This document shows positions 384 to 9,994 of a stretch of DNA of 12,266 nucleotides, in pieces. Source of the DNA: Fibrobacter sp. (GTDB lineage Bacteria > Fibrobacterota > Fibrobacteria > Fibrobacterales > Fibrobacteraceae). The position numbers were made by a program, and so were the translations under genes. Within the stretch, counting starts at the first letter, position 1. Each line of letters opens with the position of its first letter. The stretch covers positions 1-12,266 of the forward strand of contig JAFWRL010000045.1 of the NCBI GenBank assembly GCA_017520105.1, in the 5' to 3' direction. Below the pieces are notes generated by a model. That model had not been told where the DNA came from and did not search any database. It worked only from the letters and a program-made list of their open reading frames with translations.

Positions 384-460
384 GGAGATCCCAGCACACC
401 GGAACATGTCCGGGGCAGGCTTAGGCGGGATGACAGAGGGGGTCAGGCCGTCGGGATGAC
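384..460 (-). repeat. Dispersed palindromic repeat copy (one full and one half copy)
   Basis: On the minus strand the full copy starts GTCATCCC and ends GGGATCTCC (384-434). The outer stem ATCCC/GGGAT (388-392 with 427-431) encloses an inner stem CCGGA/TCCGG (399-403 with 409-413) with a 5-nt loop. A second GTCATCCC at 453-460 has no partner arm and looks like a truncated copy. The architecture matches the copies at 1992-2029, 4044-4072, 4711-4743, 5068-5096 and 9957-9994. It lies upstream of the gpmI promoter box and downstream of the lipoprotein terminator. Confidence 0.6.
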
Positions 461-4043: not shown

Positions 4044-4072
4044 GTCATGCCGGACTCTGTTCCGGCATCGCC
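4044..4072 (+). repeat. Dispersed palindromic repeat copy, short form
   Basis: GTCATGCCGGA is followed by a 6-nt loop and TCCGGCATCGCC. The stem ATGCCGGA (4047-4054) pairs perfectly with TCCGGCAT (4061-4068). The layout of GTC, stem beginning AT, loop, stem ending AT, then C.CC is that of the other copies, with outer and inner stems merged. It lies in the uvrB leader, and no T-run follows on either strand, so a terminator is unlikely. Confidence 0.6.
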
Positions 4073-4140: not shown

Positions 4141-4231
4141 CCAATGACTAATGACCAATAACTAATAACTAGTAACTCATAACTAATAACTAGTAACTCA
4201 TAACTAGTAACTAGTAACTCATAACTAACCA
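4141..4231 (+). repeat. 13-unit heptanucleotide tandem array
   Basis: The stretch divides without gaps into thirteen 7-mers: CCAATGA, CTAATGA, CCAATAA, CTAATAA, CTAGTAA, CTCATAA, CTAATAA, CTAGTAA, CTCATAA, CTAGTAA, CTAGTAA, CTCATAA and CTAACCA. The consensus is about CTNRTAA. The CTAATAA-CTAGTAA-CTCATAA triplet recurs twice, giving a 21-bp higher-order period. It fills the space before the small plus-strand gene at 4254. Long open frames here are by-products of the 21-bp period. Confidence 0.85.
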
Positions 4232-4253: not shown

Positions 4254-4520
4254 ATGCTTTGCAATCGGATTCTTGGTACGACTCATCACGGCACTTACAA
4301 GAAAGTCATTGACGTTCCTCTTTTGCGTGAGGAGCTGACTGCCCGTTCTATCCGCTGCATTGCACGCGATGGCGTCGAAATTGAAATCGATGTCTATGAA
4401 GATTTGCAAGAAGGCGATATCTTGGCGGAAACGGACTTTAACGTGTATGCCGTAAAAATCTACGTGCCTAAGAAAAAGTCTGCCGAAGAACCTAAGCCTA
4501 AGTTCAAGAGCTATTTGTAA
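4254..4520 (+). CDS. Small protein resembling the N-terminal domain of urease accessory protein UreE
   Basis: This 88-residue protein starts MLCNRILGTTHHG. It has a core IRCIARDGVEIEIDV and LQEGDILAETD followed by a valine/isoleucine strand, then a Lys/Pro tail. That order (hydrophobic start with RILG, charged strand with R....DG, L..GD.L, final strand) resembles the peptide-binding N-terminal domain of UreE. The metal-binding C-terminal domain and His-rich tail of true UreE (about 150 residues) are absent, and no urease genes are in the window. A role in nickel delivery is therefore doubtful; it may be a stand-alone chaperone-like or degraded relative. The start is the first ATG, with no Shine-Dalgarno and a promoter-like box directly before it. 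It is divergent from uvrB across a repeat-filled gap. Codon pattern and length suggest a real gene; the family assignment is from pattern memory only. Confidence 0.6.
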   Translation: MLCNRILGTTHHGTYKKVIDVPLLREELTARSIRCIARDGVEIEIDVYEDLQEGDILAETDFNVYAVKIYVPKKKSAEEPKPKFKSYL

Positions 4521-4555
4521 TTAGATATTTTGTGCCTCACACTTGATACTTTCTT

Positions 4556-4743
4556 ACGTCATTGCGCAGGCGCATGACTTTGCGGCTCGGCAATAAAAAT
4601 GAGCAAGCTCATTTTTGCAGCACTCGCCTTGTACGTCATTGCGCAAGCGCATGACAGAAACGCCTCGGATATAGAAACATGCAAGCATGTTTCTGCATCA
4701 CTCGGCTCTTACGTCATTGCGAACCCGAAGGGTGAAGCAATCC
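4556..4743 (+). repeat. Left palindromic array flanking the GIY-YIG gene
   Basis: Anchors ACGTCATTGCG occur at 4556, 4633 and 4711, spaced 77 and 78 bp. Units 1 and 2 each begin with a hairpin GTCATTGCGC-NN-GCGCATGAC and contain a central palindrome around GC-AA-GC. The arms are AAAAATGAGC/GCTCATTTTT at 4595-4616 in unit 1 and AGAAACATGC/GCATGTTTCT at 4673-4694 in unit 2. Arms differ but stay perfectly paired. The third anchor leads into the terminal hairpin ATTGC-GA-ACCC-GAA-GGGT-GAA-GCAAT followed by CC (ending 4743), 24 nt before the nuclease start codon. An open frame beginning at 4599 is produced by the repeat and is not considered a gene. Confidence 0.8.
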
Positions 4744-4767
4744 ATAAAATTTTTGTATGTTCTTTTC

Positions 4768-5058
4768 ATGCAAGAAAAATCATACACCTACATTCTTTTC
4801 AATAAGCCGCATGGAACGTTATATACGGGTGTGACTTCGAACTTAGTGAAACGTATGCAAGAACATAAATCATTGACCTCGGGATTTACTGCAAAATACA
4901 AAGTTACGCTATTAGGTTATTTCGAAGAACATACCTCAGTTGTTGATGCCATTGAAAGAGAAAAAAAGATAAAAGGTGGGTCTAGAAAAAAGAAAATAGC
5001 ATTGATTGAATCAATGAACCCTCAATGGAAAGATCTTTTCTCTGAACTCGATGTATAG
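4768..5058 (+). CDS. GIY-YIG family endonuclease, small stand-alone type
   Basis: This 96-residue protein is essentially one GIY-YIG nuclease domain. It starts MQEKSYTYILFNKPHG. YTYIL stands in for GIY (6-10) and LYTGV for YIG (18-22). Arg29 lies in the helix KRMQEHK, a likely catalytic Glu is in EREKKIKGG (65), and the family tail NPQWKDL is at 84-90. Small single-domain members of this kind (about 80-100 residues, often annotated UPF0213/YhbQ-like) are common in bacteria and mostly uncharacterised; the fold cleaves DNA with one metal ion. The frame is open 27 codons further up, but that extension runs into the repeat, so the ATG at 4768 is chosen. No Shine-Dalgarno is visible. The gene is boxed in by inverted palindromic arrays, 24 nt from the left one and 9 nt from the right one. 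This suggests that gene and repeats travel or function together (inference). Confidence 0.9.
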   Translation: MQEKSYTYILFNKPHGTLYTGVTSNLVKRMQEHKSLTSGFTAKYKVTLLGYFEEHTSVVDAIEREKKIKGGSRKKKIALIESMNPQWKDLFSELDV

Positions 5059-5067
5059 ATCGTTTTT

Positions 5068-5373
5068 GGATTGCTTCGCTTCGCTCGCAATGACGTCTAA
5101 GACGAGAGTCGCAGCCATGCTTGCATGGATATGACCGAGTCGATAGTCTTGTGCTTGCACAATGACGTACAAGAGTATCAAGCAGGAGTCCACTTGTGGA
5201 CTCATATTTGATACTCGTAGTGTCAAGCCTCGAAGAGGAATGACGTGCAAGGAAATCAAGCGCGAGGCCACTTGTGGACTCGCATTTGATTTCCGCAGAG
5301 TCATGCACGAAGTGTAATGACGTCCAATGACGTGAAAGCCGAGTGATACAGGAACATGCTTGTGTAAGACCAC
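5068..5373 (-). repeat. Right palindromic array flanking the GIY-YIG gene, inverted relative to the left
   Basis: Read on the minus strand, the terminal hairpin at 5096-5068 is ATTGC-GA-GC-GAA-GC-GAA-GCAAT followed by CC, the counterpart of 4711-4743. AATGACGT anchors end at 5096, 5168, 5246, 5323 and 5333 (spacing 72, 78, 77 and 10). Central palindromes around TT are CCATGC/GCATGG (5115-5128), GAGTCCAC/GTGGACTC (5186-5203) and GCGAGGCCAC/GTGGACTCGC (5262-5283, one mismatch). The last two have outer stems GAGTATCAA/TTGATACTC (5173-5181 with 5208-5216) and GGAAATCAA/TTGATTTCC (5251-5259 with 5286-5294). The outermost part, to about 5373, resembles the left unit end CACTCGGCT but is degraded. 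The array stops 7 nt before the acyltransferase stop codon. Minus-strand open frames across it are repeat artefacts. Confidence 0.8.
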
Positions 5374-5380
5374 TTGAGAA

Positions 5381-6532
5381 TTATTCCCTAATATTCAAAC
5401 TTTCTTTTACGCTGATTTTTTCTTTGCCGAGTAGGCGGTAGAGCTTGCAGCGGAATAGCGGGATTGCGGCGATGGTGCCCAGAACGACAATCGGGATGGC
5501 GATGTAGGCGATTCCTGGCTGGTTGATTTGCTCCCTGAAAAAGAGTCGCAGCATCAGGACAATCCACCAGTGGACTGCGAGAATCACAAGCGCGTTGCGG
5601 GATATGTTTCTGAGAATTCCCTTGAAAACGCGGATGGGCGCAAAGTTCGGAATCTTGCTTGCGAGTAGGAACATGGCAATGAGGCCGATAATGCCTGTGA
5701 TGGAACTTGCAACGAACTGGGGGAGGCTTTTGCCCAAGTCGTTGTTCATGATGCTGAAATTCGGGCTTGGCGATTCCAAAAATGCGTATGCGATAAAGTT
5801 TGCGATTCCTACCGCTGCGACGATGGTTGCGTTTTTTGCTGCATGGGGAGCGCCCGTAGAAATGGCATTGTGGATTTTTTTGATGGGTTCTTTGCAAAGA
5901 AAACCGCATCCGAAGAAAAATAGAATTGTGAGGTCGCGTTCAATGCCTAGCGGCAAGTGAATATGGTTCTTGTTCAGAATCCAGCCGCTAAGGAGCCCTT
6001 CTATGGACATGACTGCAAAAAACAACTTTGGATTGACTTGCCGTTTTGACATCTCATGAAGTAGATAGAAAATCAAACTGACTGAATATAAAGTAAATAC
6101 AAACCACAGAGGCCCTGCGCCAACAGAGGACTTCCCGGCGATAAATATTTTGGCTATGTTCCAATAGATGTATTGCCATGTGTTGTTGATGTCGGGAATG
6201 GTATTCACGACCATCATCGTGGGCGATTTCGGGTACAGCGAGAAATTGTAAACGACTGGATCAATGGCGAAAAAAAGAAATGAAAGGTAGAGATAGGGTG
6301 CTAACAAAACTTTTGTCTTGTGGGTAAAGTAACTTTTGAAATTGCTGAAGCGCTTGGTGCTGAAAAGCACGCCTGAAATAAAGAAGAAAGATGACATGCG
6401 CAGAGCGCTCAAGTGCCACGCTCCCAAAAGGGCGTTCGGGAATGTCTGCTCGATGTGAAAAAGGCAGACTAGCAAAAGTACGAACCCTTTGAATTCGTCA
6501 ATCCAGTTGATACGGTTGTGCGAAGAATTCAT
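5381..6532 (-). CDS. Membrane acyltransferase, acyltransferase-3 family
   Basis: This 383-residue polytopic membrane protein has about ten hydrophobic segments. Family features are the N-terminal segment WIDEFKGFVLLLVCLFHIE, with His26 at the conserved active-site position, and FFFISGVLF (49-57). GPLWFVFTLYS (140-150) and a late membrane segment with HWW (321-323) are also present. Members (OatA N-terminal domain, WecH, NolL and others) move acetyl or other acyl groups onto peptidoglycan, O-antigen or other glycans. The substrate cannot be read from the sequence and the neighbours give no polysaccharide cluster. The length is normal for a stand-alone member. The first ATG at 6532 is used; there is no strong Shine-Dalgarno. 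It is divergent from the phosphatase gene, sharing the 177-bp gap 6533-6709. Its 3' end abuts the right palindromic array and no ordinary terminator is visible. Confidence 0.9.
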   Translation of the reverse strand: MNSSHNRINWIDEFKGFVLLLVCLFHIEQTFPNALLGAWHLSALRMSSFFFISGVLFSTKRFSNFKSYFTHKTKVLLAPYLYLSFLFFAIDPVVYNFSLYPKSPTMMVVNTIPDINNTWQYIYWNIAKIFIAGKSSVGAGPLWFVFTLYSVSLIFYLLHEMSKRQVNPKLFFAVMSIEGLLSGWILNKNHIHLPLGIERDLTILFFFGCGFLCKEPIKKIHNAISTGAPHAAKNATIVAAVGIANFIAYAFLESPSPNFSIMNNDLGKSLPQFVASSITGIIGLIAMFLLASKIPNFAPIRVFKGILRNISRNALVILAVHWWIVLMLRLFFREQINQPGIAYIAIPIVVLGTIAAIPLFRCKLYRLLGKEKISVKESLNIRE

Positions 6533-9909: not shown

Positions 9910-9940
9910 TAAAAAAAGATGGCGGCTCAGAGGCCGCCAT
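9910..9940 (-). terminator. Terminator downstream of cysS, in the leader of the MFS gene
   Basis: The 8-bp stem ATGGCGGC (9919-9926) with GCCGCCAT (9933-9940) has a 6-nt loop. On the minus strand it is followed by CTTTTTTT (9911-9918). It lies about 87 nt past the cysS stop and 14 nt before the MFS start codon. Confidence 0.8.
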
Positions 9941-9956
9941 GACAGTGTTCTGCTAG

Positions 9957-9994
9957 GGATCCTTCCCCGGACTAGTTCCGGGACTCAGGATGAC
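9957..9994 (-). repeat. Dispersed palindromic repeat copy
   Basis: On the minus strand it starts GTCATCCTGAG and ends GAAGGATCC. The outer stem ATCCT/AGGAT (9959-9963 with 9987-9991) and inner stem CCCGGA/TCCGGG (9966-9971 with 9977-9982) enclose a 5-nt loop. Layout and ends match the GIY-YIG flanking hairpins and the copy in uvrB. It lies between the cysS stop and its terminator. Confidence 0.7.

Follow-up and report, generated by a model that had tools for sequence, protein, structure and literature searches.

Chenal et al. reportedly described in Nature Communications in 2025 a family of GIY-YIG proteins, Ssn, together with a repeat named NTS in Neisseria and its site-specific cleavage as single-stranded DNA in vitro; cutting confined to single strands and an influence on natural transformation are reportedly traits of that family. 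Here we analyze a stretch of 12,266 nucleotides from a Fibrobacter sp. (contig JAFWRL010000045.1, the window in what follows) in which a small GIY-YIG nuclease gene is found between mirror-image hairpins. A similar layout is known from the REP/RAYT (TnpA-REP) systems and REPINs (REP, repetitive extragenic palindrome; RAYT, REP-associated tyrosine transposase), in which (PMC8266576, PMC3116915) a small nuclease gene also lies between inverted tagged palindromes, solo copies are found elsewhere and enzyme and repeat co-evolve. There the enzyme is of the HUH/Y1 kind and the tag is GTAG, whereas the window has a GIY-YIG enzyme and a CGTC/GTC tag. Membership of REP/RAYT is not supported by this partner and this tag, and RAYT is a fair analogy for the nuclease-hairpin unit, not its family. 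The original prediction of a REP/RAYT-like layout with a GIY-YIG enzyme held in that form, since a PF01541 gene does lie between inverted hairpins and homologues have the same two-sided arrangement. The repeats themselves recall the CGTC-tagged REPs surveyed in 2013 (PMC3733652), among which the Neisseria dRS3 and Rickettsia RPE repeats are named. The part of the survey devoted to them describes these REPs as apparently without a dedicated transposase and not associated with transposase genes, and leaves open what spreads them; our data point to a specific enzyme family.

The gene and its two inner hairpins are located in the window as follows.

4768 to 5058, forward strand: GIY-YIG nuclease gene, 96 aa plus stop (ATG at 4768, TAG at 5056-5058)
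4712 to 4743, forward strand: left inner hairpin, CGTCATTGCGAACCCGAAGGGTGAAGCAATCC, read as CGTC-ATTGC-GA-(ACCC..GGGT)-GAA-GCAAT-CC, tag facing away from the gene
5068 to 5095, reverse strand: right inner hairpin, CGTCATTGCGAGCGAAGCGAAGCAATCC, read as CGTC-ATTGC-GA-(GC..GC)-GAA-GCAAT-CC, inverted, tag facing away from the gene

The gene is thus enclosed by inverted hairpins of the form CGTCATTGCGA..GAAGCAATCC, and the coordinates agree with the predicted inversion of the two inner hairpins and with their predicted distances from the gene (24 nt left, 9 nt right). A profile scan, for which the longer 123-aa frame at 4687-5055 was the input, matched PF01541 with E=5e-13 and 49.6 bits (cut-off 22.6). 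Seven residues (Y8, Y19, G21, R29, H33, E65 and N84) are invariant in a 38-row alignment of the nuclease, and all of them except H33 we take to be catalytic positions from the I-TevI and UvrC literature. By domain and conserved residues the protein belongs to the GIY-YIG superfamily. In the AlphaFold2 model (mean predicted local distance difference test score, pLDDT, 90.4) residues 71-72 form a turn joining helices 58-70 and 73-83.

We have compared this locus with 80 genomes of the genus Fibrobacter, 67 of which contain a homologue of the nuclease, often several per genome. From 185 matches 162 copies were kept after dropping duplicates and those with fewer than 76 residues covered. Strict hairpins (GTC-X5-N(3-45)-revcomp(X5), with a perfect stem and within 200 nt of the gene) were found upstream in forward orientation in 116 of the 162 copies, downstream in reverse orientation in 110 and on both sides in 92, compared with 48, 36 and 6 of 340 random positions in the same loci. 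Among 82 dissimilar copies, picked by a text-similarity cut of 0.8, GTC-tagged hairpins with outward tags were present on both sides in 43, and around none of 83 neighboring open reading frames (ORFs, at least 100 aa). Both expectations of the original prediction, that palindromes flank the homologues and that they are not equally dense beside unrelated genes, were therefore borne out. A first flank test had given inverted matches above the 99th percentile of the control in 83 of 157 copies. That test started downstream at the stop codon. Since the hairpin on this side runs into the 3' end of the ORF in a number of copies, later tests started where the conserved core ends; this change was made after the data had been seen. 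The overlap was observed in six of our loci (L131, L140, L141, L150, L151 and L167), and for this reason C-terminal residues such as ..AGMTVSTPKS or ..GDPGTRPG are read as repeat-encoded.

The association extends beyond the genus. A scan of GTDB gave 44 loci and, once duplicates were removed, 35 copies in 34 loci outside Fibrobacter, a sample biased towards glycine at residue 71 because one of the six peptide patterns used contains it. With a relaxed filter that allows one stem mismatch, 23 of the 35 had a proper tagged hairpin on both sides and 29 on at least one. The 23 two-sided copies come from 13 named phyla and two unplaced loci, so that GTC-tagged hairpins of many kinds surround such genes in at least 13 phyla. 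From plasmids, 16 of 32 records were fetched, many of the others being near-copies by identity. A scan of IMG/VR matched four stretches, none of them a relative.

The stem of the hairpin differs among copies, and its type agrees between the two sides in 92 of the 102 copies typed on both. The most similar protein from another genome and a non-orthologous site shared the hairpin type in 116 of 131 cases (31 of the 162 copies were left out as untyped or oddly typed); label shuffles averaged 32 and never went above 47, and paralogues within one genome shared the type in only 13 of 66 pairs. Across these sequences hairpin type goes with the protein and not with the genome. In a quick tree built from 87 of the 131 copies (those more than 0.9 similar or shorter than 80 aa were removed), with few columns and many unresolved forks, the five types need 12 changes versus 47.4 in shuffles. 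For one copy, L013, the CC type rested on a spurious match upstream, the downstream hairpin being of the CTGA type. All 27 representatives of the ATTGC type have Gly at residue 71 (within IKGGSRKKK), as against none of the 60 others, where Trp, Tyr, Leu or Phe occupies the position in 55. Counted over the full set of 131 typed copies, Gly is found in 40 of 40 and 0 of 91 (in three of these 91 the residue is unreadable). The Gly71 rule was recorded before the later loci L211-L243 were fetched. Among these 33 loci, typed by eye and including three of a divergent clade, three without a clear hairpin and the near-copies L232/L237 and L241/L242, the Gly proteins had ATTGC hairpins in 5 of 5 cases and the non-Gly proteins another type in 21 of 22.

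Copies of the repeat are also dispersed away from the gene. The pattern GTCATTGCGAN{2,30}GCAATC matched 2061 times (a few of the matches overlapping) in the 80 genomes and the backward pattern once, so the ATTGC hairpins are beyond chance. Of 72 distinct ATTGC-type inner segments, 43 contain self-complementary stretches that give a stem of 4 bp or more, with 7.35 expected from shuffles, indicating that sequence is conserved in the outer stem and internal loop and mainly pairing in the inner stem. With two copies per gene subtracted, ATTGC repeats reached a median density of 10.9 per Mb where an ATTGC-type gene was present (19 genomes), compared with 4.4 where it was missing (61 genomes; p=8.9e-6). 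Repeats of the GTCATCCTGAG..GTCGAAGGATCT type had medians of 3.7 per Mb in 18 genomes carrying the corresponding gene and 1.5 in the other 62 (p=6.1e-4). Restricting the comparison to genomes at least 85% complete gave p-values of 7e-6 and 0.0059, respectively, and crossing each repeat type with the other gene type, without the subtraction, showed nothing (p=0.50 and 0.71). Three pairs of hairpins with outward tags about 160-180 nt apart and no gene between them (L244-L246) held nothing that could convincingly be called a GIY-YIG remnant (the best tblastn E being 0.009). In two of them (L244 and L245, at about 300-540) the hairpins are of the ATTGC type, about 170 nt apart and apparently inside a single lipoprotein-like ORF, where a translation by eye reads them as a VIASVAKQS-like peptide.

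The insertion site in the window is bordered by two genes.

4254 to 4520, forward strand: left neighbor gene, 88 aa, left border of the site
5381 to 6532, reverse strand: right neighbor gene, acyltransferase-like (name read from the translation), right border of the site

The 88-aa gene has a match in 76 of the 80 genomes. The site could be compared in 26 sequences, the window and 25 of 30 loci with both the 88-aa and the acyltransferase-like gene in reach (in L078, L079, L083, L092 and L094 no acyltransferase was seen close to the 88-aa gene). The nuclease was present at six of these orthologous sites, with the neighbors 532-860 nt apart, and absent at 20, with the neighbors 6-1352 nt apart (6 nt in genomes G062 and G076). 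The ATTGC hairpin GTCATTGCGA was found in none of the 19 empty junctions printed, which indicates that, from one species to another, the gene and its cognate hairpins are either both there or both missing. The original prediction had expected this of strains; between species it was confirmed as joint absence. Hairpins of other types did occur at nuclease-free sites, in at least four genomes (G053, G043, G002 and G009).

At the level of sequence comparison, the pairing of gene and hairpins, its type-specificity, the dispersal of the repeats and the joint presence or absence are established. The model that we favor, and consider likely as a whole, is that of a hairpin-specific GIY-YIG endonuclease and its cognate GTC-tagged hairpins forming one accessory unit. 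The gene product would be a small structure- and sequence-specific endonuclease of the kind reportedly called Ssn. Its cognate site would be the flanking hairpin, with an unpaired GTC tag, an ATTGC/GCAAT outer stem, a GA/GAA internal loop, a variable self-complementary inner stem and a CC/CT tail. The nuclease may bind this hairpin in single-stranded DNA and cut one strand close to the base of the stem, and residues 71-72, at the turn, may help to read stem positions 4-5. No covalent DNA intermediate would be expected with a GIY-YIG enzyme. We infer that the repeats spread when the host repairs or recombines the cleaved DNA; the solo hairpins in the genome would then be further cognate sites left by past repeat copying, and the gene with its inverted hairpins would be present or missing as a whole. 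Many relatives carry their own repeat versions, so each enzyme probably recognizes its own hairpin. A bolder extension, which we put forward only tentatively, is that small GIY-YIG nucleases are the missing dedicated mobilizers for the entire superfamily of GTC-tagged REPs in the different bacterial phyla, with every clade copying its own hairpin type through single-strand cleavage and position 71, in the turn between two helices, setting the stem that is read. The type-by-type correspondence and a residue that predicts the repeat make the question testable, and the family is suggested as a source of hairpin-specific cutters of single-stranded DNA.

Several observations weigh against the favored model. 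In the arrangement opposite to the expected one (upstream reverse and downstream forward) hairpins were found in 29 of 162 copies versus 4 of 340 control positions, arrays being enriched as well, and in the first flank test direct matches exceeded the control percentile in 55 of 157 copies, frequent because many copies sit in arrays. No tagged hairpin was detected at the typing step in 25 of the 162 copies, of which seven have GTCTTCCCC hairpins missed by the filter and nine belong to the divergent clade, nor on either side in six of the 35 copies outside Fibrobacter. For typed copies outside the genus the nearest Fibrobacter protein had the same type in only 9 of 27 cases; the tree suggests a switch of type in one Fibrobacter branch, which could account for this. 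Residue 71 was chosen post hoc among 96 scanned columns and changes three times on the tree, once on well-supported (starred) branches, so that its phylogenetic support is thin; one later locus, L218, is an exception to the rule. The genome-level density statistics ignore shared ancestry, and ATTGC repeats are present also in genomes without the ATTGC-type gene, at the lower median given above. Finally, at a homologous locus of Neisseria gonorrhoeae the nearest repeats are inverted but face the other way.

Some of these features could be produced without any functional link, if small accessory genes and REPs both gather in permissive intergenic sites. The other-type hairpins at gene-free insertion sites are in keeping with such passive association, which we nevertheless hold to be quite unlikely given the lack of the two-sided layout at the 83 neighboring ORFs, the match of type to protein rather than genome and the fact that two repeat types are each denser only with their own gene type. 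The hairpins could also serve the expression of the nuclease gene, as terminators or mRNA stabilizers, and be kept by descent, with unrelated uses for the solo copies. Many copies do have them no more than a few tens of nucleotides from the gene, and in some they extend into its 3' end; however, a role in expression leaves unexplained the conserved unpaired GTC tag, the outward tags on both sides, the dispersal over 80 genomes and the link between gene type and solo density, and it seems unlikely to us.

It is also conceivable that a Y1 transposase of the IS200/RAYT type moves the repeats and that the nuclease is their passenger or parasite, as a Y1 transposase domain is found in 27 of the 80 genomes. 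Yet hairpins were present on both sides in one of the best 10 loci among 37 listed Y1 matches (the gene position was assumed from the locus layout, and one locus was shorter), and the density of ATTGC repeats was 6.43 per Mb with Y1 and 6.32 without (p=0.50). RAYT/IS200 as the mobilizer was rejected on this flank count and flat density, and we regard the explanation as very improbable. The lack of association between CGTC repeats and transposase genes in the part of PMC3733652 cited above also speaks against it.

Beyond the inner hairpins, the window contains the following repeats.

4555 to 4711, forward strand: left outer array, with two 77-78-nt units at 4555-4631 and 4632-4709
5096 to 5362, reverse strand: right outer array, in the opposite orientation to the left array; direct units of 78 nt at 5161-5228 and 5239-5306
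388 to 434, reverse strand: solo GTC-tagged hairpin, other stem type
4044 to 4068, forward strand: solo GTC-tagged hairpin, other stem type
9919 to 9943, reverse strand: solo GTC-tagged hairpin, other stem type
9959 to 9994, reverse strand: solo GTC-tagged hairpin, other stem type

Two palindromes occur in each left outer unit, one of the form CGTCATTGCGC..GCGCATGAC and the other A+T-rich. The outer units do align between sides, as had been proposed, with 38 nt at 89% complementarity (4682-4719 with 5325-5362, inverted) and a second inverted match of 28 nt, also at 89% (4628-4655 with 5146-5173). The outer palindrome ACGTCATTGCGCAAGCGCATGAC (up to two mismatches) was found in 32 copies in 18 of the 80 genomes, five of them no more than about 150 nt away from a nuclease gene of the ATTGC type (four upstream and one downstream, by eye). 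Correcting an earlier note, by their sequences the units of about 78 nt are a second, looser repeat family. As for the solo hairpins of the window, described in the original prediction as being of the same design, the GTC-tagged design is indeed common to them; their stems are of types other than ATTGC, which rules them out, by sequence, as cognate sites of the nuclease. Upstream of the 88-aa gene, at 4150-4228, there are short tandem-like repeats, variants of TAACTAGTAACTCATAACTA.

Other surroundings of such genes were seen among the homologues. The divergent clade of small GIY-YIG proteins (L002, L192-L200 and L225) adjoins palindromes of another design, GTTCCCTGAGCYTGCCGAAGGGAAC, for which a strict pattern was found upstream in 5 of 11, looser forms being also visible; its Fibrobacter copies have a similar downstream neighbor. 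The printed flanks of two Legionella homologues (L016 and L046) have no GTC-tagged hairpins, and both show a downstream palindrome, GATGCCGCGAACAAGTCGCGGCACGTAGGC. On plasmid AZO_p3 of Azospirillum lipoferum 4B (L235) the nuclease gene, with CC-type hairpins, lies between sufB and sufC, and on plasmid p1 of Planktothrix agardhii (L229) between an MmeI-type restriction gene and the DISARM gene drmA. A tandem pair of nuclease genes with equal identity to the query, their starts 762 nt apart, was found in L058 (G047:C1:275117-276166).

With the CGTC-tagged REPs, as characterized in the relevant part of PMC3733652, the hairpins of the window share the unpaired CGTC tag, a stem starting with AT, the CC(A) tail and dispersed copies, and tag, stem start and tail are found on both sides (CGTCATTGCGA..GCAATCCA). 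The four families described there have stems of 8-9 bp and loops of 4-5 nt, whereas the hairpin of the window combines an outer stem of 5 bp with an internal loop and an inner stem that varies; because of these differences it is a relative of the four families and not one of them. Other known systems close to it are the UPF0213 small GIY-YIG proteins (1zg2, 1ywl) and Slx1, the latter of which, going by entry titles, works with Slx4 on branched DNA. A literature search of a limited collection found no paper joining GIY-YIG with REP repeats among those listed, which is not the same as absence from print, and a term search of the GIY-YIG survey PMC1564403 did not find 'palindrom'. A homologue in N. 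gonorrhoeae has 44.3% identity over 91% of the query and sits among CGTCATTCCCGCGCAGGCGGGAATCC dRS3-like arrays, in keeping with the reported Ssn/NTS family. This locus may be Ssn, and NTS may be the same repeat as dRS3. The window gene resembles Ssn, as reported, in being a small single-domain GIY-YIG protein with a cognate repeat in many genomic copies, here the 2061 matches, whose density goes with the presence of a type-matched gene. It differs in the host, Fibrobacter, in the ATTGC-type repeat and in the position of the gene tightly between inverted hairpins. Judging from sequence, it is probably an Ssn-type nuclease with cognate REPs. The partnership, which the original prediction took to be undescribed, is probably not so, an outcome that depends wholly on the 2025 paper; if the family was described there as reported, this kind of pairing is already known and the window holds a new member of it. 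What the present analysis would add is the breadth of the GTC-tagged hairpins, the genome-level link for two repeat types, the correlation with residue 71 and the jointly empty sites.
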